This document shows, piece after piece, positions 8,707 through 35,950 of a stretch of 64,000 nucleotides of DNA (its first letter is position 1; each line of letters begins with the position of its first letter). The DNA lies in NCBI GenBank assembly GCA_015501585.1, contig JADNRY010000066.1, positions 1 through 64,000 on the forward strand, read 5' to 3'. Position numbers and translations under genes: made by a program. The DNA comes from Rhodocollybia butyracea. Its lineage: Eukaryota > Basidiomycota > Agaricomycetes > Agaricales > Omphalotaceae. Below the pieces are notes generated by a model that did not search any database, was not told the origin of the DNA, and was given only the letters and a program-made list of their open reading frames with translations.

Positions 8707-11700
8707 ATGAGTTGGACGAGCCTCATACGACGAAATTGGGGCTTCAGAAGTATACCTAGAGTCAGACTTGTACACACGGAAACTGAAAATATTCGAACTC
8801 GACCTCTCGTCATCGGAATCCGCCGCGAAGACCCGTCTCGTATCTGGGAGCGACGCGTTCCGCTCACGCCAGAAGATGTTCGGGATATTATAAAGTCTTT
8901 TCGAAACGAACAACGTGGAATAGATCTTGAAATCCACATACAACCATGTTCACGCAGAATCTTCACCAACGAACAATACTCTGCCGTTGGCGCAAAGGTT
9001 ACAGACGATTTGAGCGATGCGCATGTGGTGATTGGCATTAAGGAACCAAGGGTCCAGGATGTGTTGGTTGACGCTGTTGGGGTTCCAGGGACTTTGAGCT
9101 CGAGCTCAGGTTCAATAGCAAAGTGCCCTAGAACATACATGATGTTCTCGCATACAGCCAAAGGACAAGAATACAATATGCCTCTTTTGAATTTGTTCTT
9201 ATCCTCTGGCTCTGGATCGAATTCCTCATATCCAACACTACTCGACTACGAACTTCTTACTTCTTCTTCCAACCCTGGTAAACGTACTCTCGCTTTTGGC
9301 TTCCACGCAGGCCTCGCCGGAACTCTTCTCTCTTTTCATACGCTCGGCATCTACCAACTCACTACTCTCGGTGTCGCTACTCCGTTCCTGTATACTCCAC
9401 TTCCGCAAAGTATGGGAAGTGTCGAGGAGTTGCGAGCAGCGTTTCGGGATGTTGGAAATATGATACGAGATAGTGGAGGAACGGGAGAGGGTTTGGGTCC
9501 ATGTGTCATTGGTGTCACTGGGTAATTACTTTTATTCGTCTTTATCTTTGTTGATCTCTCATATATTCGCATTATAGAACAGGAAACGTCGCCAATGGTT
9601 GCCTATCCATGCTCTCCGAACTCCCTATCGAAAACGTACTCGTGTCCGAATTGGAGGATCTGGTAGTCAGGAGGAAGTTGAGGGGCGAGGATGTTTCCTT
9701 GGACAAGGTTTATGTCGTTCATGTCAAACCGGAGGATCATTTTGTTAAAAGAGCTTTAATTTCCGAGTCCTCTTCTCCGATTACCAATTCCGATGCCTCT
9801 TTGTCACAAATAGCTCCCTCCACCACGTATTCCCGCTCCGACTACTACAGCCACCCATCATCCTATACCTCAATATTCAGCACTTTCATCGCTCCCTATC
9901 TTACGCTTCTGCTGAATGGCACGGGGTGGGCACCAGGTTTTCCGCGGTTAATAGGGAAGGAGGCACTAGGGGACTGTGTAAAGAGGATAAAGGATATCGA
10001 AAGAGAGATAGGAAGAAGGGAAGGAAGGTTCGGTGTTGTTGGCGATATTAGTTGTGACCCTTATGTGAGTGTCTTATTCATAAGAACTTGGTATGGCTTT
10101 TTATTGATTTCCTTACGATCCAGGGTGGTCTCGAATTCCTTACTCACTCGACTACACTCGACAATCCGTACTACAAGATTGACGCCCCAGTTCCTTCGTC
10201 TTCATTAAACTCAGAATCGGACTCCTCATACCCTATTTACATCCAAGCCGTAGACATCCTTCCCGCCTCCCTCCCCCTTGATGCATCGATACATTTTTCA
10301 AAGGGTTTAAAGAGATATTTAGAAGGTGTCTTGAGGCGATATGTAGGGTTGGCGGCGGTGAAGACGAATGACGCTGAGGCCGAATCGGATGTGAACAACA
10401 TTGTAAAGGAAGAAGAAGAAATTAAGGAGACTGAAGAAGCCCTTTCCCGTGCGACGATCGCTTCTTCTGGTAAACTCGCTGGAAGATTTGGGGATATGAA
10501 AGGGGATGGGTCGTTGGGGCAGAAAGTGCAGGCGTGGAGGGATCGGGTATCCTCTTCACGAGTTCAAAGCGATGGTAGCGACCACGAAGCAGGAGCTGAA
10601 GCAAGAGGAAGGGGCTCGAGTGTCTCTTCCTCTAATGACTCTGAAGCCGCAACCTCCGTAGAAACGGCTCTCCATTCACTAACCGGTGCTCAACGAGTCG
10701 TTCACAAACTCAACCTTCAGAAAGACCTTGATGACGAAATCGGATCGGATGATATCGAGGGTGTCAGGACACACAGCTTGTTTGTTAAGAATTTGGATCG
10801 GAAAATCGGGGATAACGAGTTTATGAAGGCTTTTGCGAAGGTATGTTGTTTGTCTCGTTGTTATTGATCTTCTCGTATTCCCAGTCGTTTGTTTTTGGCT
10901 TTTACCTTTTCTATATCAAGCTTTCTGTTTTTCTGTTGCTGCATCTGGTTTCGAAATCTTTTTCTGAATGTTTATTGTTGAATAGTTTGGCCAAGTCCTC
11001 TCCGCACGCACCTTCCATAACCCGGATGGTCGAAATTATGGGTATGTCAGGTATCAGAACGTTGACCAAGGTGTGTCGTGTAATGTTCTCTCTTTCTCTC
11101 TTCCTTCGTAGCAACGTATTTCGCATCTTGTTCCGAAAAGCCACTAAATTCTCGCGCAAACTTGACTCTTGCATATCAAAAACTTGAACTGACCTTGATC
11201 CTTTAGCGTCCGACGCCATAGCTCATATGAACGGTGTCGTCCTCGGATCTGGGCCCGAAGCCCGACCGATTTGGGTGGAAGCGCATGTACCTAAGTCGCT
11301 CCGCCGGCCTAATGCTAGCGAAGATAGCGAGAGCAATACGATCTGGCACGTGAACCAGAGAACGAGTGAAGATGAAGAGGATGGTGAAATCCACAATGAT
11401 AACCCCTTGTCAAAGTCCTCAGCGTTCTCGGAGCCAGAGCCAGGCTCACCAGCTGTTGTAGACTCCGGACCCACTAAACGCAAAAGTATCCTCCTCCTTG
11501 GATCTGGGATGGTTGCTGGGCCCGCTGTGAGATATATCACAGAGAGGATCTTCGAAGCTGGAAACCTTCGGCTTATCATAGCGAGTAAGGAGCAGGCCGA
11601 GTTGGATGCTTTGGAGGCTGGACTGGAGTCGTTGTGGCCCCGGAATTTCAGAGGTGGAACAGCACAGGACATCCTATCCTTCCTTCGTCAAATACGGTCC

Positions 11701-13738
11701 ACACGATCGAAGTTCGTAAAGATTGATGTGGGGGATGCGGTGATGAAGATGAAGATGAGTGAGGCTGGAACCGAAGACAGTGAGGGAGAGGGTTTAAAGA
11801 AGTTGGTGAGGAGTGTAGATGTTGTGGTCAGGTTTGTGCGATATCCTGCTCTCTTTGATGACTCTGGTTCTGAAAGATTTTTTCTCTACTTCCCTTCTCT
11901 ATTTCTGCTGCGCCTACTTTTCTTACTCCTTGCTCCCCGCGATGACAACAATGAAACACATACACAGCCTCCTTCCAGCGTCCCTCCACGTTCCCATCGC
12001 AGAACTTTGTATCCAAGAAGGCAAACATCTCGTCACAGCATCATATATCTCTCCTGAGATGAAAGCGTTGAATGAACGGTAAGCTTATTTCGTTTCCACT
12101 TTTGTCTGCCTTCCACTTTTTCGCTCCAATTACCAATCACTGATTCTTGTTTCATCCATATCCCTATCGACTTATCCCACTATTCATCCTATCATCCTAC
12201 AGCGCTCTCGCTGCCGAGGTCCTCCTTCTCAACGAAATTGGTCTCGACCCAGGCATCGACCACGTTTCTGCGATTTCAATGCTCGAACGTTTGAAATCCG
12301 AAAAGAAGGACGTGAAATCATTCATCAGTTTTTGTGGGGGGCTGCCTGCACCAGAACTCGTTGGTCCAATCTCGAAAAGGGAAAGAAAAAATTTGAATGG
12401 AAAGAAAGGTGTAAAGACCTCAGGCGCGGGTCATACGTATGGCTCCGCGGGCCCGCTATCGTACAAGTTTAGCTGGAGTCCACGGGGGGTATTGACTGCT
12501 GCATTGAATGGGGCGAGATTTAGGTTGAGAGAGAAGGAAGTCGTTGTTCCTGGGCCCGGGATCGCTGCTACGACCGGGACTGTTGAGGCCAGTGGTGGCG
12601 ATATGGGTGGTGCACTGTTGAAAAGTGCATTCCCGTCGGTTGATCTCGCTAGTGCGAGCGAGCATGATGGAGAGCTGGCGGCGATTACCGGGATGTTGGA
12701 AGGGTTACCCAATAGGGACTCGTTGCCATACGAGCATGTGTATGGGTTGTCGAAGGATGGGGATGAAGGTGTTCGTTCAGTGTTAAGGGGAACTTTGCGG
12801 TATGTTTTTGCTTCTAGTCAGCAGTTTCTGGTTTTATGATTATTTCCTTGAATTTTAGGTACAAGGGATTTTCTTCCCTTATGTCATCCTTCCACGCCAT
12901 GGGAATGTTGGAAACCGAAGCTACCATTACGATAGACTCGGGCTCTGATAGAGATCTCGAACGTGCTTGGTATACCGTCTTCGAAAAGGCTAGACGACTT
13001 CGGCAACAGAGGTATCCCTTGCCTGAACTGCCTGAAATGCCTGATCTTTCCACCCCGACAACCACAGATGCTCCCCAAGATTTAGTGTACGTGGAAGCCG
13101 TGAAATGGCTGCTGAACACCGAAACCGGAACTCCCATAGCTTCCTCCGAATCGAACGACTCAAACACACGCGAAAATCCAAATTCGAAATGGATTGGCCT
13201 TCCTCCCCTCCCTGCCTCTCCCACTACTCCGCTCGACCTATTCACACAGCTACTAGCGCACAAGTTGCGCTATGCGCCTGAAGAGAGGGATATGGTTGTA
13301 CTAGTACATGAGGTAATCACTTCGAGCGCAGAGAGCCTCTCGGAAGCGGAGAGAGAGGAAGAAATCCACACATCTTCTCTTGTCATTTATGGCTCCCAGT
13401 CCCCGAATGGAGATTACGAGTCAGCTATGGCGCGTTCTGTTGGTATCCCAGTGGCTATTGCGGCTCTTGCTGTTATTGATGGGGCCGTATCGCCTCTTCG
13501 TTCGGACAAGGAGAAGAAAGTGACGATCCGAGGCGTCCATGGACCTGGACACGAGTCGATCCGGGAACGAGTATTGCAGGGGATGAAGGATGCGGGGATT
13601 GGGATGCGGGAAGGCGTACGGAGGGTAAAGAGGGTGGATTCGAACGCGAATGGGCAGAAAGGTTATGCGTGTGCAAGTACAGGGGTAAACGTGGCGAGTT
13701 TGGAGTCAAGTTTGGTTGTGAGGTATACAGGGGCTTAG
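8707..13738 (+). CDS. Bifunctional lysine-ketoglutarate reductase/saccharopine dehydrogenase with an internal RRM
   Basis: Alpha-aminoadipic semialdehyde synthase type. LKR condenses lysine and 2-oxoglutarate to saccharopine; SDH oxidises that to aminoadipate semialdehyde and glutamate, in mitochondria. Exons: 8707-9521, 9578-10064, 10124-10840, 10986-11070, 11207-11831, 11968-12078, 12203-12799, 12859-13738. Total 4317 nt, 1438 aa, no stops. The N-terminus ([20 protein letters not shown]) is Arg-rich, like a mitochondrial presequence. LKR covers about 33-507 ([39 protein letters not shown]). An acidic linker leads to an RRM at about 650-735, with RNP2 LFVKNL and RNP1 [11 protein letters not shown] covers about 793-1438, with a nucleotide motif [11 protein letters not shown] and later [12 protein letters not shown] and [15 protein letters not shown]. 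Animal AASS has about 930 residues. LKR joins the RRM inside exon 3, and the RRM joins SDH inside exon 5. The start is the first ATG before the presequence. Confidence 0.9.
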
Positions 13739-13844: not shown

Positions 13845-14227
13845 AGGGCTGTTCAATTCTAATCGCGTTAAAAATCGCGAGTGCTCACGATTCACTCAAA
13901 TGAGAGCCGACGAGTGCCACCCTGACCAACCCTGAGTAATAACAAGATGCGCCCGGACCGCCGTGCCCTCACAGTTTGGCTCGTTCTTACTTTTTGGTAG
14001 TACCCATGCCCTAAGTAATGTGTAGGGCATTCAACAGATATAAGAATGGTACAAATTAACTAAAAAGATAGTGTCCTCCTTGTACCTACAGCTTCCTAGA
14101 GCTCGATGAGTCCAGTCATGGCTTTGGCATTGCACCTGATATAAGCATCAGGTGGCATCGTCGGCCTCTCATTTGATTGAATCGTGAGCATTCGCGATTT
14201 TTGCCGCAGTTAGAATTGAACAGCCCT
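13845..14227. mobile_element. MITE with long terminal inverted repeats
   Basis: A 383-bp element with terminal inverted repeats of about 70 bp. The left end AGGGCTGTTCAATTCTAA and the following GCTCACGATTCA...AATGAGAG...CCGACGA blocks return in reverse complement at the right end. The direct repeat ATA flanks both sides (13842-13844 and 14228-14230). No coding frame is present. A 3-bp or TA duplication suggests PIF/Harbinger or mariner origin, which I cannot decide. It sits about 100 bp past the stop of the LKR-RRM-SDH gene. Confidence 0.8.
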
Positions 14228-16056: not shown

Positions 16057-16745
16057 TAGTGCTGCCGCGAGTCGAGTTCAAGTCGAGTCGAGTTATGAAT
16101 AAAAAATAACTCGACTTGATTGCATCAAGTCAAGTTGGAGCCGCTCGTCGAGTTAACTTGATATCAATTACCCAAAAAGGTGACCGTCCAGGGTCAACTC
16201 GCTCAACGCTCAAGTCCTCTCACTTCCAAGGACCAACTTCAAGTCATAAGTTGCAGATGAGCTTCTGTTGTATTTTATATACTTGCTAGTATGTAAATTG
16301 CAACAATGTCACGGTAATTACAGCAGGCATAAGACTTCAGTAACACATGAGCTCTGCGACCAATTATATTAGTGCTGCTGCACTGCAAGAGCTCGCTTAG
16401 AAACCAACTTGAAACTGTTTTTCTAGTTTTGCTACTCAACTTTAAGAATCCACAAGATACTCAGTGACTCAGGCTGGACAGATACACACTCGTTCATGTA
16501 CAATCAAATAAAACTTAACAATGCCAATTACTGCAACGATAACTACAAATTACCCATCCACCAAGAGGCTTGAGGCGCAACAGAGGCCTACTGCCCTGGA
16601 CTGCATATAGAACTACAAAAGAGGAAGCGAGTTCAAGGCAAGCTTCCAAGCCCATCAAAACTCGGTAACTCGCCTTCCTGTTTTAGAACCGAGTCAAGGC
16701 AGTCGAGTTCAGGGTCCAAGCTAACTTGAACTTGCGGCAGCACTA
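16057..16745. mobile_element. Non-autonomous hAT-type element
   Basis: A 689-bp element begins TAGTGCTGCCGC and ends with its inverse GCGGCAGCACTA. The perfect 8-bp target duplication AGCTAAGC (16049-16056 and 16746-16753) is the hAT hallmark. The subterminal regions are packed with GAGTCGAGTT/CAAGT-type motifs in both orientations, as expected of transposase-binding repeats. No transposase frame is present, so it must be mobilised in trans if at all. Confidence 0.88.
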
Positions 16746-17072
16746 AGCTAAGCAGAATTGTTTCACCTTGTCAAAGCACCTGTCATGTGATTTTGTGAAT
16801 TTACCTTCAGCGCTCAACAACAAGTTCAACGCTTCTCACGACTACAGCCTCAAACCAAGGGTTCCCACGCCCGACCGTTTGGACCGTTTTCGAACCGATT
16901 AAATCCGACAAGACCGTTTTTCACCGATGGTCATGTGGGAAGATAAGCGCCCATGCAACTCGCTCTGACGGACAACTCTGGGCAACTATGAGCTCAATTC
17001 AAGCTCAATATACCCTTTTTTTAATGCTATTTAAGTAAGACTATGAACAAATGAACATTTTGGCATGGCAAC

Positions 17073-17420
17073 TGTTGGATATTCGGTCCGCGGTATATGG
17101 CCGCCGGTATGTACAGCTCCAATACCGAGTAGATATCAGACCCGAGTTCTTATCATTTGTTTTAACTTTTATTTCACTGATACGGATTTCTACTTATACT
17201 GTACGTATCGACGTTCCCTTCTTTTCCTCAGCCTTCATCACTTCTGGCTGAGGTATGTCTATTATACTTATGCTCTATGTCCATTATGCTCATACTGTAC
17301 CTATAGCTTAGTTGTACATCGTACTAACGTGTCTCTTAGGTATGGTAATATGATTTAGCCTTCATCACTTCTGGCTGAGCTTAGTTGTACATCGTACTAA
17401 CGTGTCTCTTAGTTCCAACA
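17073..17420 (+). repeat. 5' LTR of the copia element
   Basis: 348 bp, TGTTGG...CCAACA. Two internal duplications are visible: a 22-bp block at 17231-17252 repeated at 17358-17379, and a 34-bp block at 17306-17339 repeated at 17379-17412. The 3' half of the LTR therefore arose by local duplication. Confidence 0.95.
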
Positions 17421-17432
17421 GGTTATGGGCCC
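17421..17432 (+). promoter_or_regulatory. Primer-binding site for a half-tRNA primer
   Basis: GGTTATGGGCCC starts at the base after the 5' LTR. It is the reverse complement of GGGCCCATAACC, the anticodon arm of initiator methionine tRNA (anticodon CAT). It is not the complement of a tRNA 3' end, which would start TGG. This matches the internal tRNA-fragment priming known for Drosophila copia and yeast Ty5. Confidence 0.75.
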
Positions 17433-17519
17433 CGAGTCCGCCTGATACAGCCAGCCTTATAGTGATTACCGGAATCGAATCTTTTATCTTCTCTTCCTGC
17501 ATAACCCTCGTCTCTATCG

Positions 17520-20500
17520 ATGTCTACTACCCCTTCCGCTCCTACTACCCAACCTACTCAGACTACTTCGAGTACACAGACCACTATGACCGCGCCGACT
17601 ATTCCGAGTGATTGGACCATCCCTAGTGGTGGAAATTCACTCTTCCCTCGTGACACTAAGCTCAAAGGTGAAACAAATTTTTCGTCTTGGTCTGCCGTCT
17701 TCCTCGCTGGTGCTCGCACAGTAGGATGTCAATCTATTTTGTCGGGCACGCTTGTTTGTCCTCCCGATACCGACACTAAGTATCTTATCTGGCAACGGAT
17801 GGATTCTTATATGATGAACATGCTTCTCCAGTGTATCTCTGAGAGCATGGTCAGCATGGTAGAAGGTCTTACGAGCGCCGCCGCCTATAAACGACTTTCG
17901 GGTACTTATGGTCCTCAGGGTTCTGGTCTCATCATGACGTTCTTCTCCCGACTCACCCGCCGACTTCCGCTCCAGCATAGCTTTGATTCTTTGTCCGCCC
18001 ATCTTCAGGGTTTCGAATCTGCTCTGCAGGATATCCGGAAAGCTGGGTACGTTGTGGAGGAAGGGTTTGCCTCTGCTATTCTTGTCACTACTCTCCCCAA
18101 TGAAGAAGGTGCGACCGGGTCTTGGCACACCTGGATCCGCAGTTTCTCTCTCACCTCCAGCACTACTCTTGAGTCGACTGTCCAACAGATTTTAGGTTCT
18201 TACCGTTCAGCTCATCCTGACGAGAACTCTAATTCCGGCATGTCGAACGTAGAAGCCGCCGTCGCTGTGCTCGAACGCTCCTATGCGGCCCGTGGAGATT
18301 ATTATTGTGTCAACTGCCACACTCCCGGTCACACCAAGGATTTTTGCCGTAAGCCCGGTGGTGGGAAACATGCTATGGAGGCTAAGGGAGGTAACAGAAA
18401 GGGGAAAAATAAGAAGAAGGGCAAAGAGAAAGCCCACCATGTGGATAGTGGGGGAGGAGGTGAAACTGAGCAGTCTACCTCATCACATTTTGTAGAATCT
18501 TCTTCGGGCGCCAATATTATCGATTTCTCTGCTTACCCGGTGACCGAGACTTCTACAAATGTGAATTCCTCCCAGCCTATGTCTGAGTCAGTGTATCCAG
18601 CTGGTACTACTGCCGATAGGCCTCCCATCATTATCGACTCTGGTACTACGTCTCACATTCATTCTGTTCGTGCCGACTTCACGTCTTTCCACCATCCGGC
18701 CATTTCTCAGAAGGTTACTGGATTTGGTCATGGTACTATGAAGATTGCAGGTCGAGGTATAGCCGTTTTTCTTGCGCGTCGTCGCCATCGTCAACTTGTC
18801 CGTCTCAATCTGAAGGACACTGCTTTCGTTCCTGACTCCTCTCCTACCCTCATTTCCGTTTCCCGACTCGACGAAGCTAAGTGTTATACTGTCTTTGGCG
18901 CAGGGAAATGTGTAACATTCAGTAAGGATGATGCTGGTACTTTTATCCAGCGCCTTATTGATGAGGAGGATGTTGTTTTCACTGGAACGAAGGACGATTC
19001 TCGACTTTATCACCTTGACTCTGCTCCCTCCACCTCTGCGTTTACATCTTCCACCTCGGACAAACCTCCGCTTTACTCCAAACTGGTTCAGCTTCATAAC
19101 GAGCTTGGGCATTTGAACTATCCCGCTTGTCGTGACTTGTACCGTTCGGGTACGCTTGAGGGGATGACCGTGAAACTTACGGCCTCAGAATTGGCTGCAG
19201 AACCCCCCATCTGTGACGCCTGTGCGCAGGGAAAGCTCACCCGTGCGCGCTTTCCTGAATCGAACTCTAGAGCTTCAGAGCCACTGGGCCTAGTTCACTC
19301 AGATCTTTGGGGACCAGCTCCGGTCTTGACCACGACCGGCATGGGGTATCTCATCACGTTTCTTGATGATTGCTCCCATATGGCTTGGGGTTACTTGCTT
19401 CGCCGCAAGAGTGATGCTTTTACTGCTTTTAAGCAGTGGTTAGTTGAAGTAGAGAAGGTAACCGGCAAAAAGTTGAAGGTTTTCCGCACTGACAATGGTG
19501 GGGAATATATAACCAACGAGTGGCGCGATTGGATGAAGGAGCATGGTATCCGCTGGGAAAAGACCGCTCCTTACACTCCTGAACAGAACGGCCGTTCTGA
19601 GCGCCTCAATCGTACAATTTTTGACCGGGTACGCACTATCCTTATTCACTCTCAACTCCCTCTCTCTATGTGGGGCTACGCTGTCTGGTACATTCTTAAT
19701 ATCCGTGCCCGGACTTATGCTAGTCCTCTACCTAAAGGGGAGACACCCTATCATCTCTGGTACAAGAAGCACCCTGACCGTCGAAAATTGCATTCTTTTG
19801 GATGTAAAGTTTGGGTATACAACAACTCGCAGGAGCATAAACTTGACGCTCGTGGTACTCCTGGTATTTTTCTAGGTTTTGACGAGACTCGGGTGGCGTA
19901 CTATGTGTACACGCCAGGTAAAGGTGTACGTTCAGCAATCTCTGTGAAGTTTGATGACAACACTAATGGAGATGGACTTTTGAGCGCCGCGGGGGAGTCC
20001 TATGATTATTCGTCTCTCAAAAATCCTACTTATAAAGATGACGATGAGTTTTCCCCTATAACCGCTCCATCCGCTCTCCCACCTGACCCTCCTGTTCCTG
20101 TTCCTCCTGCTACTCCTCCACCTCGTGCCCCTCGTCCTAATCCCCGCATGCCTTCTGATGCTACACCTGCTAAGACTCGCTCTCGTGCGAGAGCAGAAGT
20201 CCAGCCACAGATTGATGAGGATATTCCTCCGCATGTTGAGCTTGATATGGATGATAGCGGGGATGAGGGGGAGATGCCCGAACTGGCTCATATCTTGAGT
20301 GGTGAAATTCCATTCAATGTTTCGCAGGCTCTCAACTCTCCCGATCATGCAGAGTGGGAAGCCGCTTGTCATTACGAGCTTAACCAGCTCTTGGAGACTG
20401 GGACTTACTCTCTCGTTCCACCACCTCCTGACCGTAAGGCCATTGGTACACGCTGGGTCTTCGCTATCAAGCGCAATGCCGACACTCAGGCCATTGAGGT

Positions 20501-21884
20501 CTACCGAGCTCGACTTGTAGCTCAGGGTTTTACCCAAATTCCGGGTATTGACTTTGTCGATATCCACGCTCCGACTGCTCGTATTGAATCCATTCGTGGT
20601 ATTGCAACCGTAGCGGCCATCCAGGATTGGGAAATTCATGTCATTGATGTGAAATCTGCTTATCTTAATAGCACCATCCCTGATGACCAGCCAACGTATG
20701 TGAAGCAACCGCCCGGATTTGCAGTCAGAGGAAAGGATTCGTGGGTTTGGAAGCTTAACAAGGCACTCTATGGACTTAAGCAGTCTGGTTTTCTCTGGTA
20801 TGAGAAACTAAAAAGTGTTTTGGTTGAACTTGGCTTTCAGGTTTGCATTTCCGATCCTTGTGTCTTCTTTCGTCGTTCTTCCGATGGAATAATCATCATT
20901 GCAACTCACGTCGATGATCTAGCTCTCTTTGGTTCCTCCATTCTACAGATTATTCAATTCAAGGATGAGTTCCGTACTCATTTTGATATCTCGGATAAGG
21001 GGGAGATCTCTCAATTTTTGGGTATGACTGTTACTCGTGATAGATCTGCTCGAACCATTTCCTTTTCCCAACGTTCCTACATCTTGTCTCTCATTTCGCG
21101 TTTCCGACTCGATGATGCTCACCCCGTTGGAACACCCATGGAAAAGACGGTATTGTCCAAAGCTGATTGTCCTTCTGATGATTCTCCTGAACAGAGAGAG
21201 ATGCGCTTGGTGCCCTACGCTGAAGGTGTTGGTTCTCTCATGCACGCCTCCACTCGAACGCGCCCGGACATCACTCGCAGCACCCAACAAGTAGCGCAGT
21301 TCATGCATAATCCCGGTCATATCCACTGGAAAGCAGTGAAACGGATTATTCGCTATTTGAAGGGGACTGTTGACTTTGTCCTCGTCCTTGGTGGCAAGTC
21401 ACTCCTTTTCTTTGCCTATACCGACTCCAACTTTGTTGATCACCTTGAACATGGTCGTTCGGTGTCTGGCGCCGCCCTCACTTTCGGTACAGGTTGTTTT
21501 TCCTGGTATACAAGGAAACAGACTGCTGTTGCGACTTCCACCAGTGAAGCCGAATATTATGCAGCTGGATCTTGTGGTAGGGAAGTTGTTTGGTTCCGCT
21601 CCCTTCTCCAGGAACTCGACTTCACTCAACCTGAACCAACTCAGATGTTTGTTGATTCATCTTCGGCTTTGAAGAACATTAATTCCGACCAAGTCACTAA
21701 TGCAAACAAACATATCAAAATTCACCACCACTGGATTCGTGAAGCGGTTCATTGCGGTGATATTCAGACAGCTGTTGTTGCTTCTAGGGATAATGTCGCC
21801 GACATATTCACCAAAGCTCTTGATGGTGAAACTCATCGACAGGCAACTCGACTACTGGGACTTGTCCCAATGCATTCTCGTTGA
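17520..21884 (+). CDS. Copia Gag-Pol polyprotein
   Basis: One frame of 1454 aa in the copia order. Gag covers about 1-300, with a zinc knuckle CVNCHTPGHTKDFC at about 263-276. Protease has DSGTTSHIH with the catalytic Asp near 373. Integrase has the HHCC finger (HNELGHLNY to CDACAQGK, about 526-565) and the D, D, E residues near 595 (DLWGP), 658 (DNGGEY) and 694 (QNGRSER). Reverse transcriptase has YRARLVAQGFTQ, DVKSAYLN, LYGLKQSGFLWY and the active site HVDD near 1132 (the family usually has YVDD). RNase H has YTDSNFVDH near 1302 and TSTSEAEYYAAG. Stop TGA is at 21882-21884. Gag and Pol share one frame, with no frameshift or stop between them. Confidence 0.97.
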   Translation: MSTTPSAPTTQPTQTTSSTQTTMTAPTIPSDWTIPSGGNSLFPRDTKLKGETNFSSWSAVFLAGARTVGCQSILSGTLVCPPDTDTKYLIWQRMDSYMMNMLLQCISESMVSMVEGLTSAAAYKRLSGTYGPQGSGLIMTFFSRLTRRLPLQHSFDSLSAHLQGFESALQDIRKAGYVVEEGFASAILVTTLPNEEGATGSWHTWIRSFSLTSSTTLESTVQQILGSYRSAHPDENSNSGMSNVEAAVAVLERSYAARGDYYCVNCHTPGHTKDFCRKPGGGKHAMEAKGGNRKGKNKKKGKEKAHHVDSGGGGETEQSTSSHFVESSSGANIIDFSAYPVTETSTNVNSSQPMSESVYPAGTTADRPPIIIDSGTTSHIHSVRADFTSFHHPAISQKVTGFGHGTMKIAGRGIAVFLARRRHRQLVRLNLKDTAFVPDSSPTLISVSRLDEAKCYTVFGAGKCVTFSKDDAGTFIQRLIDEEDVVFTGTKDDSRLYHLDSAPSTSAFTSSTSDKPPLYSKLVQLHNELGHLNYPACRDLYRSGTLEGMTVKLTASELAAEPPICDACAQGKLTRARFPESNSRASEPLGLVHSDLWGPAPVLTTTGMGYLITFLDDCSHMAWGYLLRRKSDAFTAFKQWLVEVEKVTGKKLKVFRTDNGGEYITNEWRDWMKEHGIRWEKTAPYTPEQNGRSERLNRTIFDRVRTILIHSQLPLSMWGYAVWYILNIRARTYASPLPKGETPYHLWYKKHPDRRKLHSFGCKVWVYNNSQEHKLDARGTPGIFLGFDETRVAYYVYTPGKGVRSAISVKFDDNTNGDGLLSAAGESYDYSSLKNPTYKDDDEFSPITAPSALPPDPPVPVPPATPPPRAPRPNPRMPSDATPAKTRSRARAEVQPQIDEDIPPHVELDMDDSGDEGEMPELAHILSGEIPFNVSQALNSPDHAEWEAACHYELNQLLETGTYSLVPPPPDRKAIGTRWVFAIKRNADTQAIEVYRARLVAQGFTQIPGIDFVDIHAPTARIESIRGIATVAAIQDWEIHVIDVKSAYLNSTIPDDQPTYVKQPPGFAVRGKDSWVWKLNKALYGLKQSGFLWYEKLKSVLVELGFQVCISDPCVFFRRSSDGIIIIATHVDDLALFGSSILQIIQFKDEFRTHFDISDKGEISQFLGMTVTRDRSARTISFSQRSYILSLISRFRLDDAHPVGTPMEKTVLSKADCPSDDSPEQREMRLVPYAEGVGSLMHASTRTRPDITRSTQQVAQFMHNPGHIHWKAVKRIIRYLKGTVDFVLVLGGKSLLFFAYTDSNFVDHLEHGRSVSGAALTFGTGCFSWYTRKQTAVATSTSEAEYYAAGSCGREVVWFRSLLQELDFTQPEPTQMFVDSSSALKNINSDQVTNANKHIKIHHHWIREAVHCGDIQTAVVASRDNVADIFTKALDGETHRQATRLLGLVPMHSR

Positions 21885-21891
21885 GGGGGAG
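21883..21891 (+). promoter_or_regulatory. Polypurine tract of the copia element
   Basis: GAGGGGGAG directly before the 3' LTR, overlapping the gag-pol stop codon. This is the usual primer for plus-strand DNA synthesis. Confidence 0.85.
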
Positions 21892-22239
21892 TGTTGGATA
21901 TTCGGTCCGCGGTATATGGCCGCCGGTATGTACAGCTCCAATACCGAGTAGATATCAGACCCGAGTTCTTATCATTTGTTTTAACTTTTATTTCACTGAT
22001 ACGGATTTCTACTTATACTGTACGTATCGACGTTCCCTTCTTTTCCTCAGCCTTCATCACTTCTGGCTGAGGTATGTCTATTATACTTATGCTCTATGTC
22101 CATTATGCTCATACTGTACCTATAGCTTAGTTGTACATCGTACTAACGTGTCTCTTAGGTATGGTAATATGATTTAGCCTTCATCACTTCTGGCTGAGCT
22201 TAGTTGTACATCGTACTAACGTGTCTCTTAGTTCCAACA
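21892..22239 (+). repeat. 3' LTR of the copia element
   Basis: 348 bp, identical by eye to the 5' LTR, ending CCAACA before the GCAAC target duplication. Confidence 0.95.
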
Positions 22240-22244
22240 GCAAC

Positions 22245-25200
22245 TTTAGAGAAACAACGCGAAACACTGAACATCGGATCCGACTCAATCTCATTGCTGA
22301 ACAGGCTCTAAGTAGTAACTTCAATAAGGAAACTTCACTAGTACTTATTTAACTTGCACTGATGACTTCGCGCGCTAGCGCAAAGTTTTTGTATAATTAG
22401 GTTATCTTCTTGTAAGATCTTTAGTGCATAACAAGCCTCATGAAGTACTTATCTTGTAAACAAAAAGCACATACTATGGGTATTCTTTATAGCTAATTTC
22501 TATACTTACGCCGGTGGCGAAAAATTTCGAACTTTGACTCTCAGAAATACAGAATCTGAGCAATATTTAGGCATTGGAGGACCGGGAATTGAAACCCCAG
22601 CCCAACTGGCCCTCGGCAGAATTGATTCCGCTCATGCGTGGGGCTGGCTGCGCCTCCGGCGCGCCAGCCCCTCGGTATGACTGATTTTTCCTTCTCACTG
22701 CACTTTTCGCAGCTCCCAGTTGCCTGTTATTCCTTGTTGCGCCACTTACTCTCTTTATTCGCGTCCTACCGCTTACTGCGTGGCAGTGCGACCACATTTA
22801 CCCAGCGCATTGATTCATCTGACTGATACTGAACCATCCTCTTGACATTTTTTCTTGCATTAAACGCTGCTGCAGTTCTGTCTCTTACATGCACGTGCAA
22901 ATTCTCAGTGCAGTGGATTCTTTTTTGCCACATGGCATTTATATATATCTCATTACTTCCTGTTTTGTACCCCCGCACTTTACTTCCTTGGGTTTTTACT
23001 TTTCATCGGCGGCAGTTGAAGTGCATGCGCTGCCTCTTTTGGTGTATTCAATGGTTCCATCAACAAACTTGATATTTACTGCCCTTTCTAACCTCGGACA
23101 AAATGCCTTCCTTTACTTCTTGTGAGTGTATTCGGGTATCCCTTGCATTCCTCGCACTGATTTTTCTTTCATAGTGCCTACTGAGCTCACCATCAAAATT
23201 TTGCAAATTTATGTTGCTTTCTACATCGATCCTTCATTTGACATCACTCGTGTTCCATTGAATGATAGCAGTGCCCTCAAACTTCAGCATCTTTCCAACT
23301 GAAAAGAGCTCCTTTCCATGCTTACAGTTTGCCGGACATTCACTGCTGTGTTGCCTCCGCTTATATTCCAGTGGGTCAATATCTTTTCAACCAGAGCAGT
23401 CGCCAGCTTCCATCGTGCTGTTCATTCTTGCTCAGGAGAGTGTATTGGATAATATGAGTATCAGAAATGTTAATATGTTATTGACTTACCTTCTGCTGTG
23501 ATGTACTGCAGAGTGTAGTCTGCATTTCATACCTAGTCTCTTCCAGGACCTGTACCTGCCACGCGCTTGCGCGATGGCCCACACTCGCAAGTCAATATGG
23601 GATATATGGTAGTGGTAGTGGTAGTATAACCAACGACGTCCGACGTGGTCCCATTTCGGAACAGCTGGGGCCCCAGCTAAATGTATCACGCCAAATACAT
23701 GCCTGGGATGGTCTCCACAATGCTGTGACCAGCACACCCAAGTGCCATCGCACAAACATCGAGACTACACATAACCTAAGAAGAAGGCGCTAGAGACTGG
23801 ATGATTTTGTAGAGCTATAACAAGCATTGTACCAGTACAGACAAGTACTCAATGAAGAAGAGAAAGCCAAAATTTCATAAATGACCTTCAAAGGATCAAA
23901 GTAGCTTATGCGGAACAAAATGATTGTAAAACGATGCACAAAATCAAAAGCAACGTGAGATGATCCACCGAAAATTTCCGGACCATCTACACACCCAATG
24001 CGAATGACTCACCACTACCACTACCGGGGAAAATTTGTACAAGATTACAGCCCAATGGCGATGAGCTTCAGAGAAAAATTTAGACGCCTCAGCAAGAACA
24101 AGGACAATCGAGAACACGAACAATCGCATTCGAGAACAAGGACAGTCGCATTCGAGAACAAGAACAAGTGTTTTCGGGAAGAACAATTGCAGTAAATCAG
24201 AGCAAACACGACATGCAAAACAAACAGTCACATTGGGACAATTGCTTCTGGCAGCACAGTATCAGTTGAGTTTGATGCAATGGACTGAAAGAAAAATACT
24301 AATAGGTATAGTAGATATATCCTCGGAACGCAATGACAAGCTTTGGAGTTCGTGATCCTTGCAGGTTACAAGAAAAATTTTCGGGCCAATAGAATAGGTT
24401 GTCTTGAACCTCGGGAGTCGGAGGCCTAAGATGCATGAATTAGTACAAAAGAACACTGCATAGCACCGCGCAAATGTCTCAAGGGAACCACCTAAAATTT
24501 CCAGGGAAACTTGTATGAGATCTGTTGAACTTTTTAACACATAGTTCTGGGATATGTTTGGAAAGTTATGCATTTATGGCCCAATAGGGACTAGCTTGAG
24601 GGGAAAAGCGGTATCCAGGAAATAGATCACTTCTTTCTCACGAGAGGAAACAGATGCAGCCTCATTGAACATACAGTCCATAATATGAATAGTACTAGGC
24701 TTCCCCAGTGAAGTATGTGCTGCGCGACGACGAGCTCGACAATAAAAATTTTAAGCGCTCGGTAGATGATGATGGTAGGTGAAAGAAGCACGGAATCGTG
24801 CTTCGCTCCAGCCTCGACAAATTTGATTATAGGAAGAATTTTATCGAACGTTGCATTATGTAGTAGGTGCATTGAATCGGGCTGAGCTGAAGCACGGGAA
24901 CTTTAATATCATCACTTCAGAGGCGAGGAACAGCTTTTGGTAATCCTCTCTGATTCGGAGGTTAGTGAAATCGCATCCTCAGCGTTTTGGATTGGAACGG
25001 TCAGTGCCAAAGGGGCGGAAACCAAGTGAAAACGAAGGTACAGACCAATTTAACGGGCTTGTGAAAGGGCGTTATAAATGGGTTATGAATGTGCTCTTGC
25101 TTTGTATCGGGATCTTGATTTGATCTTGACAGTGTCAAGAACTGTGGTGAGACCAACTTGGCCGGTTTCTTCCTTCCTATGGGGAGTTGATAGGAATTGT

Positions 25201-30062: not shown

Positions 30063-33000
30063 ATGAATCTGCTACGATGCAATTGGCGCAGTAGTGGCAT
30101 ACGAATGTACAACTTGGGCAGACAGCGTCGAAAAGAATGGAAACGTTTGCACACTGAAACCCAACGAATCAGATCTAAACCCCTTGTCGTCGGAATCCGC
30201 CGTGAGGACCCATCGCTTACCTGGGAACGACGTGTACCATTAACGCCAGGAGATATTCTGCTCATTTCGAAGTCATTTCGATCGCAACTCCGCAACATGC
30301 TTACCACCATCCATCCTTACCAACTTGACGAAAAGGGAGAATTATTGATACCATTTGAGCTTGAATTCCACGTACAACCCTGCTCTCGCCGAATCATCCC
30401 AAACGCACAGTACTCTGCCGTTGGCGCAAAGATTACAGAGGATCTAAGCGGCGCACATGTGATAATCGGGATTAAAGAACCGAGAGTTGAGGAGGTGCTG
30501 GTTGATGGACTTGCAATTCCTGGGACTAAGATGACGGGTTCAGGCTATAGCTCAATAAAAGATAAAGACAACTGCGCCAGAACATACATGATGTTCTCAC
30601 ATACAACCGAAGGGCAAGAATACAATCTCCCTCTTTTGGATTTGTTCTTATCCTCTGGCCCTAATTCGAAATTGCACCTCCCAACATTAATTGACTATGA
30701 ACTTCTCACTTCCGAGTCCTCCTCCAAACGTATCCTCACATTCGGGTTTCACGCAGGCCTCGCCGGAACTCTCCTCTCCTTTCACACGCTCGGGATATAC
30801 CAACTCGCTACTTTAGGTGTCGCCTCTCCCTTTTTATATACTCCGCTCCCGCAGAGTAAGCGCAGTGTCGATGAGTTGAGGGCGGCTTTTCACGACGTTG
30901 GGGATAGAATACGTTTCGAAGGTGGCACTGGGGAAGGACTGGGTCCATGTGTTGTTGGTATTACTGGGTAGGCACTCCATCTAGCTTTCCTCTCAATATC
31001 TATCTAATCGGTTTCAACTTGCCGTATAGAACAGAAGACATCGCTGATGGCTGCCTGTCCATGCTCTCTGAACTTCCAATCGAAAACATACTCGTTTCAG
31101 AATTGGAAGATCTGGTGGTTAGGAGGAAGCTAAGAGGTGGGGATGTTTCGTTGAATAAGGTTTATGTGGTCCATGTGAAACCAGAGGATCATTTGGTTAA
31201 AACGCTTTCGAATTCCGATTCCTCTTATCCTGTCACCGGCTCCGATAACCCTTTTTTGAAACTTCTCAGCTCAACTACGTATTCCCGCTTTGACTACTAC
31301 AGCCACCCTTCAACTTATACATCAACTTTCGCAACCCACATCGCTCCATATCTTACTCTCCTGCTAAATGGCGAAGCGCGGGTGCCGGGTTTTCCCAATT
31401 TGATGTGGAGGAGAACTTTAGAAACGTGTGTGAGGAGGGTAAGGAGATGGAACTCGAGCATGGAAGAAGGGAAGGAAGGTTTGGCGTTGTGGGTGATATG
31501 AGCTGTGATCCCAAAGTGAGCGTCTCTCATACTTCTTTTATCTGTTCGAGTCATTCTTCATCCCTTTGAAATCACCAAATCATACCCCCTTAAATCCTAT
31601 GCCTTATTTGTTCGTTCTATTCATGCCGCATGAGAACTCGAACGAAACTAACGAACCTTTATTCGTTATGTCTATTCTTCCAGGGCAACCTCAGATTCGT
31701 CACCCACTCGACTACACTCAATAACCCATATTACAAGATCGATGTCCCAGCTCAATCCCTTCACTCTTCAATATCTTCTAGCTCAATTGATCACTCCCCG
31801 GTTAATGCATCGGATCCGCCGTCCTCCTTACCCACAGCAAACTCGGACTCGTCGTCCTCACACCCCATCTACATCCAAGCCGTCGACATCCTTCCTGCCT
31901 CCCTCTCCCTCGATGCCTCGATCCACTTCTCGAGCGGGCTGAAGAGGTATCTGAGGGTGTTATCGAATGGTATATGTGGTTGGCGGTGACAAAGACGAGA
32001 GGGTTAACGTGGATAGGGCCTCCTCCTAATCTCAAGCCGAAATCCAGGAGCATAGGCGATCTCATGTCGACGGGCATGGACAAAGACAGGACTGATGCCA
32101 ATCAGATTTTTCCGGTGGAACTGCCTGAAAGACTCAGGAGAGTGTTGAAAAGCAGAGCAATGTCCGATGCCGATATAAATGCCTTACTCACCAATACCAA
32201 GTCTACTAATGGTGCAACAAAAACCAACGCTTCTACCGAATCTATCAAACCCAGCGCTGCCAGGTCGCTAGAAGAAGCAACCTTTTCCCAAGTCATACAA
32301 AGTCTCTCTCGACTGGCTCGCTTCAGAAAACTCTCTAGCGCTACCGAATCATCTGAGTGGCCAGAAGAAGAAAAGCCCGATGAAATCAGAGAAGCTCTCT
32401 TCCGTGCGGCAATCACACAGTCCGGTGAGCTCTTTGAACGCTTCCGCAAAACGGAGTCTCGGCGGTTGAGACGGAAGGTGCAGTTGTGGAGAGATACGGT
32501 ACGAGAAAGAGATGGTGGACCTTCCACTAGTACTACTATTGCCACCTTCACCGCATCCGAGGAACTAGCCACCAATTCCCTAGACCAAAGTTCCGAAGCC
32601 TTGAAGCTTGGAGAAATTATCGGAAGTAATGACGCAGGACCTGGCAACTTTTCTTCTCCCATCGCCACTGCCATTCCTTCATCGTCTATCCCTGACTCTT
32701 CTGCTGGCACTATCTTAGACACAAGGCCTGCTACGGCTGCCAAGGACACCATCGCTGATGAACATACCGATGAATATGACGCCAACGTCGATGCCCGAAA
32801 TGTTGACCCATGCCTCTTGTACATCGGCCATTTAGATCCGCAATTTGAGAGCAAGGAGTTGGTGAGGGCGTTTGCAAAGGTATCCGTCCTGTGTTTATAT
32901 TCAATCATTCCACGACCCATCTTCTATCTTTTTTTTGCTTTCTGCTTTCCTTGCGTATTCCTTGTCTCTTCCGCCCCCCTTCCTGTTTTCCTCACATCTC

Positions 33001-34208
33001 CTGATTAAGAGTCCTCTCCTAGTTTGGCGAAATCCTCGCAGCGTGCGTTGTATGCACCCACAAGGTTGGTAAAAGTAAAACACATGCGGTCGTGAAGTTT
33101 CGAAGGCCTGATCAAGGTGTGTTTTCCGTTACTTTTCATTTGATCTTGTATTATATTATGTTCTGGCTCGAGTTCGAGGATGGTTTGGGTTCTAGTATGA
33201 GCTGGCCGTTCAACGAAGGATGCCTCTATATCCTTTTGTAATTGTACCATGTGGCTATTCACCCTTGCGTTTTCCGTTTTTTTGTTTCTCAGCTTTTGTT
33301 TTTTCATAGCGGCCAACGCCATATCCTCAATGAACGGCGTCAAACCTAACGGACAGTCCCAACAGCTTTTAGTTCAAGTACATAGGCCAAAAAGATCCCG
33401 CGTGGCTCCTACGAGTGTGGGTAGGGTCCTGGTATGTGGAACGCGAACCAGACAGCGAGTAAAGACGAGGCGAAGGAAGGAAAAAAGACGGAGACGGAGA
33501 AAGCCGCACTGATGCTCCGGTAGCCTCCTCTACCTCTTCCTCCACCGATGGTGGTCGCTGGGATAGAACCTTGGATAGTTCGGATAGTGTTCGAAACTCC
33601 CCAAACGGCGAAAGGATTGGAAGAACTAGGGCTAGTGTGGATAGAATTCCAAACGCTTCAAACACTCATACGATGATCGCAAGAACTAGAGATATTGGAC
33701 GCGGGGAAATAGGTAATCGGCTAAATATCGATTTGCGGTCCTTATATGTCAAAAATTTGCCTCCTGAGATTGATGAAAGGGCGCTAGAGGAGCGTTTTGG
33801 TGAGGTATGTATCTTTCATATGTTCCTTTCACTATGTTCCTTTACTTTCTCATCTAATCTTCCAATTCTGAACTGATCTCTTCCTTTTCTAGTTTGGCCA
33901 TATCAACCGCGTTGGCATAAAGCGTAGCGCAGCCGGAGGTTTTGGGTTCATCCAGTACCGAACAGGTGATTCGGGTGCGTCTTTTTGTTAGAAACAAATA
34001 TCCTTGCTCAATCACTCAAATACACCATTTTTCCTCTTCTTTCATAGGGGCCGAAGCCATAAAGAAAATGCACGATAGCATTGTCGTTGTTCAAGGAAAA
34101 GCCTCACGACTCTATGTCGGAGTGCGTATTCCGAAACAGCTTCTCCAGGAAATATCAGACGTACCCGAGCCAGCAAACTCCAACCTGGATCCATTTATAA
34201 CCTTATAG
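30063..34208 (+). pseudogene. LKR-RRM-RRM paralogue of the gene at 8707, frameshifted
   Basis: It starts at ATG 30063 with an Arg-rich presequence-like N-terminus. The LKR domain ([21 protein letters not shown] to [13 protein letters not shown]) is complete in exon 1, and introns match copy 1 in place (30968-31029 first). The dinucleotide motif GTGNVANG of copy 1 has become GTEDIADG. One-base deletions are inferred near 31449 and 31951. A long open frame (31974 onward) then leads to RRM1 (LLYIGHLDPQFES, intron 32880-33022, FGEILAACVV...KTHAVVKF, intron 33117-33309, AANAISSMNG). Another frame break lies at about 33430-33490. RRM2 follows (LYVKNLPPEIDERALEERFGE, FGHINRVGIKRSAAGGFGFIQY), with introns at equivalent places, ending at TAG 34206-34208. 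No SDH domain is joined. The LKR half cannot be made as written. The RRM part looks better preserved. Confidence 0.8.
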
Positions 34209-34779
34209 TACAACAGCAACGTTGAGTGCAGTGAACCGGATAACGGAGGAACGACTAGAAGGGAATACGGAAAGATCTACTTGGAAAGGAAATATGTAAC
34301 TTTATATTTCACAAGTCATCAGTAATGTCGAAAATTAATAAGGTAAAAGTAAGTCTTTACTCCTTCTCTATGTACTATCACCGAAGCGAGATACTGGTAG
34401 GGTCAAAAGTGTAGATATTCAATAAGCAACGGTGCGAAGATGAAAATAGACAGAGTTTTTGCTGCTGCCTGCTGGTTTCTTCTTACTTCCTTTCGATGCC
34501 TCGTCTGAGTCACGGTCGGTGCTTCCTTCCTAAACGTTCGCCCACTCGGACACAAATGCATCCTCGGCTCCGCAATCGTGGTTGAATGATCCTGGATCTG
34601 CTGAAAAAACGACGTTAAGTTTCAGCTTAAAATTATTGTAGCGAGCAAGGAGAGCTAAGTTAACGGCTTCGGTGGCACCGGGACAGTTAGACCAGGTTAG
34701 ACCTCCCCCGTCCTCCTCCTTCCTTGTTCGCTCCAACTACCGACTATATACTGATCCTTACTTCCATATTTTTCCTCAT

Positions 34780-35950
34780 CTCCGATTCCTTCCAACAAGA
34801 GTTTCAACCCATGCATCGACCATGTTTCCGCGATTTCAATGTTAGAACATTTTTGAAAAAAGAGGGTGAAATCATTTTTATCAACTTCTGTGATAGACTG
34901 ACTGCCTGCGCCGAAACTTGCTGGTATTTGTGTTCATGAATCTAAAGCGGTTGACGGGAAGGTCAGTCCTTTGATCCCACAGGCGGCCCTCTATCATACA
35001 GGTTCAACTGGAGGGAGAAGTGAAGTAATGGACTGTTGCGATGAATAAGGCGAGATGTAGGTTGAGGGAGATGGGGGAGGTTGTTCCTGGACCTACTGCA
35101 ACAACAAGTTACTGCTACTTACTGGTGCACTATTGAAAGGTGCGTTCCCGTCGGTTGATTTCGCCGGGGCGAGCGAGTATGACGAGTTGGTGGGCGATTG
35201 CCGGGATGCTGAAAAGTCTACCGAATAGGAATTCTCTGACTCGAGATGTTTATGGGTTGCCTAGGGGCGGGAGGGAGTACTTGTTCATGTTGAGGGAGGA
35301 TGAGGGGTGCGCCTTTCTTGCTTATCTGTTTCTGTGTACATTTGTTTCTCACTTTCTGTTTTTCCATGACATCGGAATGCTATAATCCAAGGATGTCATT
35401 TCGATAGGATCAGCATCTCGAACGTATACACTAAAACAAAGTCTTAATATATAACGTAAGTGTCCTACCTGATACCTAAGATACCTTCCTTCATTTCTGA
35501 TCTTCCAAATTTAACCAATTCGGTTACGGCTCCAACATACGCGCACGCTATGAGACTACGGAATACAGAAACCGTAACTTCCATCTCTCTAACCTCGATT
35601 ACAGTTCGAACCTAAATGCTAACGAGGTTGCTAATGGCCAACAAACTGCGCTCGCCTGGGGGTGTATGCCAGTGGTCGTTGGTGCTTGGGGCTTATCGCT
35701 TCAAGTGCAGGAAAGAGGAGAGAAGGAAGGAAGGGTCCACTAGTTCCGATGGGCAGTACGAATCAGCTATGACGCGTACTGTCGTCGGTGACTGTTGCGG
35801 CGCTTGTTGATTTTTTTTGTGATGGGCCCATGGTTCAAATTCAAATATGAGGGGGAAACGAGGTGACACTGGCAGTCCGAGGTGCCCTTGGGCCCGGGCA
35901 CAAGAGTTGCGGTGAATTAGAAGTATGGATGGGAATGCGAATGAACGATC
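34780..35950 (+). pseudogene. Relic of the SDH half of LKR-RRM copy 2
   Basis: Broken nucleotide matches to the SDH exons of copy 1 appear in order. The [14 protein letters not shown] region is at about 34800-34870, the SWSPRG...ARFRLREKE...VVPG region at about 35000-35095, and the [12 protein letters not shown]...[12 protein letters not shown] region at about 35125-35240. The [10 protein letters not shown] and [11 protein letters not shown] regions are at about 35755-35920. Stops, deletions and frame changes are frequent, so it is dead. Its position shows that copy 2 once also ended in SDH. Confidence 0.75.

Follow-up and report, generated by a model that had tools for sequence, protein, structure and literature searches.

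A gene of Rhodocollybia butyracea appears to encode one bifunctional lysine-catabolic enzyme, a lysine-ketoglutarate reductase (LKR) half followed by a saccharopine dehydrogenase (SDH) half, in which a complete RNA-recognition motif (RRM) is held in the flexible joint between the two. What is new here is a known enzyme with a captured RRM whose donor is unusually clear; the LKR-SDH fusion itself is already known. Based on the sequence comparisons described below, the best reading of the RRM is that of a lineage-specific RNA-binding appendage, to which we give about an even chance, with a tolerated passenger as its close rival.

We built the gene model from the raw sequence of the window, the whole 64,000-nucleotide stretch of R. 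butyracea DNA that was analyzed. The gene runs from start codon to stop codon at 8707..13738 of the forward strand, as do its parts and the paralogue described below, and contains eight exons (8707-9521, 9578-10064, 10124-10840, 10986-11070, 11207-11831, 11968-12078, 12203-12799, and 12859-13738). All seven introns are GT-AG, and the spliced frame has 1438 codons plus a stop. The spliced product is 100% identical to the public R. butyracea protein (P0001), which lies on a contig equal in length (264,475) to that of the window, comes from the same assembly, and so does not provide independent support for the model. The domain order of the 1438-residue product is LKR, RRM, SDH, with Pfam placing AlaDh_PNT_N at residues 37-167, RRM_1 at 653-715, Sacchrp_dh_NADP at 796-954, and Sacchrp_dh_C at 960-1393. 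RRM_1 (PF00076) scored 42.2 bits in the whole protein and 47.5 bits with the RRM alone, compared to a Pfam cut-off of 20.7.

The LKR half (8707..10570, approximately residues 1-583, its end being approximate) matches over residues 34-503 the solved AASS LKR structures 8e8t, 8e8u, and 8dda, which we take to be those of the human enzyme. It is followed by a low-complexity linker (10571..10768, approximate limits) and by the RRM (10769..11307, residues 650-735), which is spread over exons 3, 4, and 5 and contains the motifs RNP2 (LFVKNL) and RNP1 (RNYGYVRY) with the aromatics F, Y, and Y present. Two introns lie inside the RRM, intron 3 (10841..10985, phase 0, at FAK/FGQ) and intron 4 (11071..11206, phase 1, at DQ/A). 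An acidic low-complexity linker (11308..11481, approximate limits) then leads into the SDH half (11482..13738, approximately residues 794-1438). Exon 3 thus encodes LKR sequence together with the start of the RRM, and exon 5 the end of the RRM together with the start of SDH. A first-pass annotation of this DNA had the coordinates, the RNP motifs, the sharing of exons, and the length of 1438 codons all correct. The N-terminus is arginine-rich with no acidic residue before E25, and resembles a mitochondrial presequence by eye only.

Fusion of LKR to SDH is ordinary in mushrooms. A search of 5.8 billion proteins, in which 7984 candidates were scored, gave 243 relatives, and by our reading both PF05222 (LKR) and PF16653 (SDH) are found in 118 of the best 120 of these, although a plant paper (PMC3017810) describes LKR and SDH as separate genes in yeast and fungi. 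An RRM model was found in only one of the best 120 of 243 relatives, the R. butyracea protein itself, so that the earlier statement that AASS enzymes have no RNA-binding domain holds, as far as an RRM is concerned, for the other 119. We also made a dedicated profile from 115 RRM3 domains of Rrm4-type proteins, taken from 120 listed rows after exclusion of five plant proteins. When run against the best 120 of 243 relatives, this profile detected P0001 only (E 5e-21), the next match having an E of 1.3, which rules out an overlooked RRM in these proteins. A separate search with residues 600-790 (1004 candidates of 0.55-1.75 times the length) recovered no protein other than the query's own and P0121, which is Rrm4-like. 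The relatives were compared as proteins, and an RRM could conceivably lie in a mis-annotated intron elsewhere. Among the papers listed by the literature searches, none is on the LKR-RRM-SDH architecture or on the gene, as judged by titles and abstract openings. The architecture is so far confined to one species. The first-pass annotation had proposed that its absence from all other fungi would speak against the fusion; the order was indeed found in no other fungus by the two protein searches, but this reads as lineage restriction rather than as an artefact because a second R. butyracea locus has an LKR-RRM-RRM arrangement with SDH remnants.

The joint into which the RRM was inserted is short, variable, and of low complexity in relatives. 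In the predicted model of an Armillaria relative (P0038; mean pLDDT 87.9, pTM 0.52), the joint at residues 465-474 is the sole internal stretch with a pLDDT below 50. A site that is variable and of low confidence would be expected to tolerate an insert. Of the 172 columns without variation among 35 relatives, a selection from the best 120 of 243, P0001 keeps 168, and the start Met accounts for one of the four missed columns, probably because of the alignment; by this measure both catalytic halves look competent. We infer from these comparisons that both halves work much as they do in relatives, with the joint tolerating the insertion. The Lentinula LKR-SDH proteins P0004, P0005, and P0006 reach approximately 1350 amino acids, and the length of P0004 is due in part to low-complexity inserts inside its LKR half, a further sign of insertion tolerance. 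The genome contains further LKR- and SDH-like matches on C679, C828, C1172, and C1068, candidates for separate lysine-biosynthesis genes.

On sequence grounds, the inserted RRM derives from RRM3 of an Rrm4-type protein, from which it has diverged. By way of the match P0121 we reached P0175, the Rrm4-like protein of R. butyracea itself, with three RRM stretches and, near the C-terminus, a single MLLE match. The inserted RRM shows 44-46% identity (70-73 bits) to RRM3 of the organism's own Rrm4 and, among the matches listed, 43.5-50.6% identity (69-83 bits) to RRM3 of Rrm4-like proteins. In a 56-row tree, it groups at 99/99 with 33 Rrm4 RRM3 domains, apart from 22 RRMs of poly(A)-binding proteins; the 33 were chosen from 115, and the bootstrap for this tree had not settled. 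The inserted RRM has a long branch there and no settled place inside the Rrm4 RRM3 group, and the RRM trees in general rest on 87 columns with long branches. In the donor family, RNP1 is RGFGFVS(Y/F) in 115 of 115 Rrm4 RRM3 rows and RNP2 is LF(C/I/V)KNL in 110 of them.

Intron positions also bear on the donor. In the rrm4-type gene, located on contig C708, three introns interrupt RRM3, the first following Gln289 (phase 0) and the others falling within Ser295 (phase 2) and Ala320 (phase 1). The two introns of the inserted RRM correspond to the first and third of these exactly in position and phase; the chance of both coinciding if placed randomly over the domain is approximately 9e-5. Because the introns are shared in position and phase, the RRM was acquired as genomic DNA and not by way of an mRNA copy. 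The Ser295 intron is absent from the inserted RRM and from two further RRMs, RRM-a and RRM-b, of the second locus. The rrm4-type gene contains a 17-nt exon within RRM3 (L056 3424-3440). P0129 of Collybiopsis confluens, an Rrm4-like protein of 1173 amino acids with an extra PF13865 model, exceeds in length the other Rrm4-like rows listed, most of which have approximately 730-840 amino acids, and is possibly a merged gene model.

The second locus, a paralogue at 30063-35940 (+), is found in the same window and starts 16 kb past the end of the first gene. Its LKR part and linker (30063..32807) are 63% identical to the main gene over residues 5-410 of the latter. These are followed by RRM-a (32808..33400; exons 32808-32879, 33023-33116, and 33310-~33400), the RNP1 of which lacks the aromatics, by RRM-b (33721..34205; exons 33721-33804, 33893-33974, and 34048-34205), which has RNP motifs with aromatics, and by decayed SDH remnants with several stops (34800..35940). 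RRM-a and RRM-b score 48.2 and 49.5 bits with Pfam, both over the cut-off, and both have introns at the same two positions as the RRM of the main gene. All three RRMs group with 16 Rrm4 RRM3 rows at 99/99. Neither this two-RRM paralogue nor the rrm4 RRM3 origin had been part of the first-pass annotation.

The reading frame of the paralogue is broken in both assembled haplotypes, the window and C1129 (L012). In the window copy, a stop at 33510 closes the RRM-a frame ahead of RRM-b. The window copy alone is broken near 31444, and the other haplotype alone near 30930 and near 31258; near 31960 both are out of frame, through different single-base differences. In the other haplotype the middle exon of RRM-a is out of frame, and its contig stops short of the SDH remnants. 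Many haplotype differences in the paralogue are of homopolymer length, and at these, true decay cannot be distinguished from errors of assembly. The haplotypes also differ between the two genes. An element of approximately 383 bp (13845-14227), just 3' of the LKR-RRM-SDH stop and with 77-nt inverted ends that are 83% complementary, is missing from the other haplotype, the empty site suggesting a short ATA-type target duplication. The region at approximately 16060-22510 of the window is mostly absent from C1129, which matches short pieces of it, some inverted, a pattern that points to inserted or rearranged DNA between the paralogues.

We examined the history of the insertion by comparing the two loci. 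An 18-row LKR tree pairs the two R. butyracea loci (100/100) and places Lentinula as their sister (96/92). The two LKR exons tested give dS values of 0.84 and 0.90 for this pair of loci. For the RRM against RRM-a, the dS is 0.69 by YN00 and 0.83 by NG86 (resampled 0.51-1.49), the latter close to that of the LKR part, which was counted in favor of the RRM predating the duplication of the locus. A single origin of the three RRMs is compatible with the data (AU p 0.53). It is supported but not proven that the RRM entered once, before a local duplication that postdates the split from Lentinula; the paralogue's RRMs with their shared introns make it most likely that the RRM is older than the duplication. 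The simplest history would be an insertion in the Rhodocollybia line after the Lentinula split, followed by gene duplication, after which one RRM was gained (or lost) and the SDH lost in one copy. A gain of the RRM before the Lentinula split with loss in relatives, which are known as proteins only, would be less simple.

To evaluate constraint, we compared the RRM with a neutral-decay simulation in which the rrm4 RRM3 coding stretch was decayed to the same identity with stops forbidden (n=1000); the simulation has no indels and includes any time that the RRM spent elsewhere before insertion. With a generic RRM profile, the real RRM scored 55.6 bits compared to 19 +/- 8 for the neutral decays, whose maximum of 42.5 left 0 of 1000 reaching it. 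With the Rrm4 profile, 10 of 1000 reached the score of the real RRM, and all three RNP aromatics survived in 100 of 1000. When stops were allowed, 112 of 1000 stayed open. RRM-a, with its RNP1 aromatics lost and its locus broken, nevertheless reaches 55.8 bits with this generic RRM profile, and a good fold score consequently does not show present function. The inserted RRM keeps 30 of the 53 columns that are at least 95% conserved in Rrm4 RRM3, such that the exact RNA specificity of the donor may be gone, and its length differences from Rrm4 fall in loops as placed in the alignment. Set against RRM-a, the RRM has a dN/dS of 0.70 by NG86 (resampled 0.36-1.27) and of 0.96 by YN00 (0.66/0.69), compared to 0.22 (0.15-0.32) for LKR exon 1, with the dN of the RRM being approximately three times that of LKR. 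This difference indicates either weak constraint on the RRM or the decay of one copy. Taken as a whole, the sequences suggest that the fold was kept through much of the divergence while the surface changed fast, and one of the compared copies may be decaying.

These data bear directly on whether the RRM is a tolerated passenger, dropped into a permissive joint where it is translated and folded but has no RNA role, the fold being kept solely because misfolding would harm the enzyme. We consider this a serious possibility, at somewhat under an even chance. It would account for the high dN/dS of the RRM relative to that of LKR by either method, for the loss of many residues conserved in Rrm4 RRM3, and for the loss of the RNP1 aromatics in RRM-a, and it is consistent with the variable, low-complexity joint of relatives and with the occurrence of the RRM in a single species. 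It does not readily explain why, in RNP1, F has been replaced twice by Y while the F of RNP2 was kept, an outcome achieved by only a tenth of the neutral decays, nor why RRM-b has the RNP aromatics and why the length differences from Rrm4 are confined to presumed loops.

If the RRM is instead an RNA-binding appendage, it would be a folded domain that has retained the capacity to bind short single-stranded RNA. Most likely, the enzyme would then associate with mRNAs, either as a precursor awaiting import or as a pool located outside the matrix, and these might include mRNAs of mitochondrial proteins that the Rrm4 system transports. The Rrm4 of Ustilago moves mRNAs on endosomes, mitochondrial-protein mRNAs being among the cargo, and its RRM3 binds UAUG, as described in the review PMC12852828. 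The UAUG motif occurs 20 times in the LKR-RRM-SDH coding sequence compared to an expected 17.2 +/- 2.8, which is no enrichment. Autoregulation of the gene's own transcript through UAUG was therefore rejected as far as the coding sequence is concerned. Of the earlier interpretation, the genuine fusion among relatives without an RRM (within the best 120 of 243) stands, and RNA binding, a mitochondrial location, and autoregulation are putative. Import into the matrix would keep the RRM from cytosolic mRNA and would count against an RNA role. A feedback from lysine flux to RNA would be speculative.

The RRM introns could also act as a processing switch, a site for making LKR alone, although we consider this improbable. 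Skipping of exon 4 would produce a stop after residue 677, retention of intron 3 a stop after residue 681, and retention of intron 4 a stop after residue 714, but many introns in the region would act alike. There is a precedent in plants, whose LKR/SDH also has an extra stretch between LKR and SDH that is the source of single-function transcripts (PMC3017810); unlike the R. butyracea protein, this interdomain is described in the available part of that source with no mention of an RRM.

It is very unlikely that the fusion is an artefact of the gene model or assembly. The public protein shares the assembly of the window, and the neighboring paralogue differs between haplotypes in homopolymer length, but the second haplotype has the same LKR-RRM-SDH gene with five coding differences (three of them silent) and no gap or coding indel. 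One silent change falls within the RRM, and five differences are too few for an estimate of selection. The RRM introns have homologous counterparts in an independent gene, and the window contains a paralogue of the same arrangement. Because the rrm4-type gene and both paralogue RRMs have introns at these two positions, the modelled splice sites are very probably real. The shared exons, the haplotype agreement, and the introns homologous to those of another gene bear out the first-pass conclusion that gene prediction did not create the fusion; the fusion is real.

An origin of the RRM from Pab1 or from any RRM protein other than Rrm4 is hardly conceivable: a PDB sequence search points first to poly(A)-binding proteins, Rrm4 RRM3 itself resembles Pab1 RRM4 (75 bits), and the profile made from the former gives Pab1 RRM4 a higher score (85 bits) than the LKR RRM (72 bits) and so does not discriminate on its own, but direct comparison gives only 43 and 48 bits to the organism's own Pab1 RRM3 and RRM4, the tree places the inserted RRM with Rrm4 RRM3, and Pab1 RRM3 and RRM4 are in one open frame without these introns (the locus being Pab1 by our reading).

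The R. butyracea protein can be compared with known systems. The AASS/LKR-SDH proteins of Agaricomycetes, animals, and plants have the same LKR-then-SDH order in one protein, to which the R. butyracea protein adds a complete RRM and long linkers in the joint. Rrm4, an endosomal mRNA transporter studied in Ustilago maydis, has three N-terminal RRMs and C-terminal MLLE domains, whereas the R. butyracea enzyme has one RRM, descended from RRM3, with RRM1 and RRM2 absent and no MLLE found at E 0.001. Many residues conserved in Rrm4 RRM3 are changed in the enzyme, and the same fungus has a separate Rrm4-like protein in P0175.

Reports of RNA binding by metabolic enzymes mostly concern enzymes that lack an RNA-binding domain, and such binding is for this reason hard to test. 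Here, a known enzyme has acquired a textbook RRM whose parent is known and for which a parental target motif has been published, and a comparison set is available in the RRM-less proteins of the sister genus Lentinula and in the diverging paralogue within the window. Together, these make the distinction between an RNA role and mere tolerance directly testable. The gene further provides a clear example of the insertion of a multi-exon domain inside a coding sequence, and represents a good test case for domain capture.
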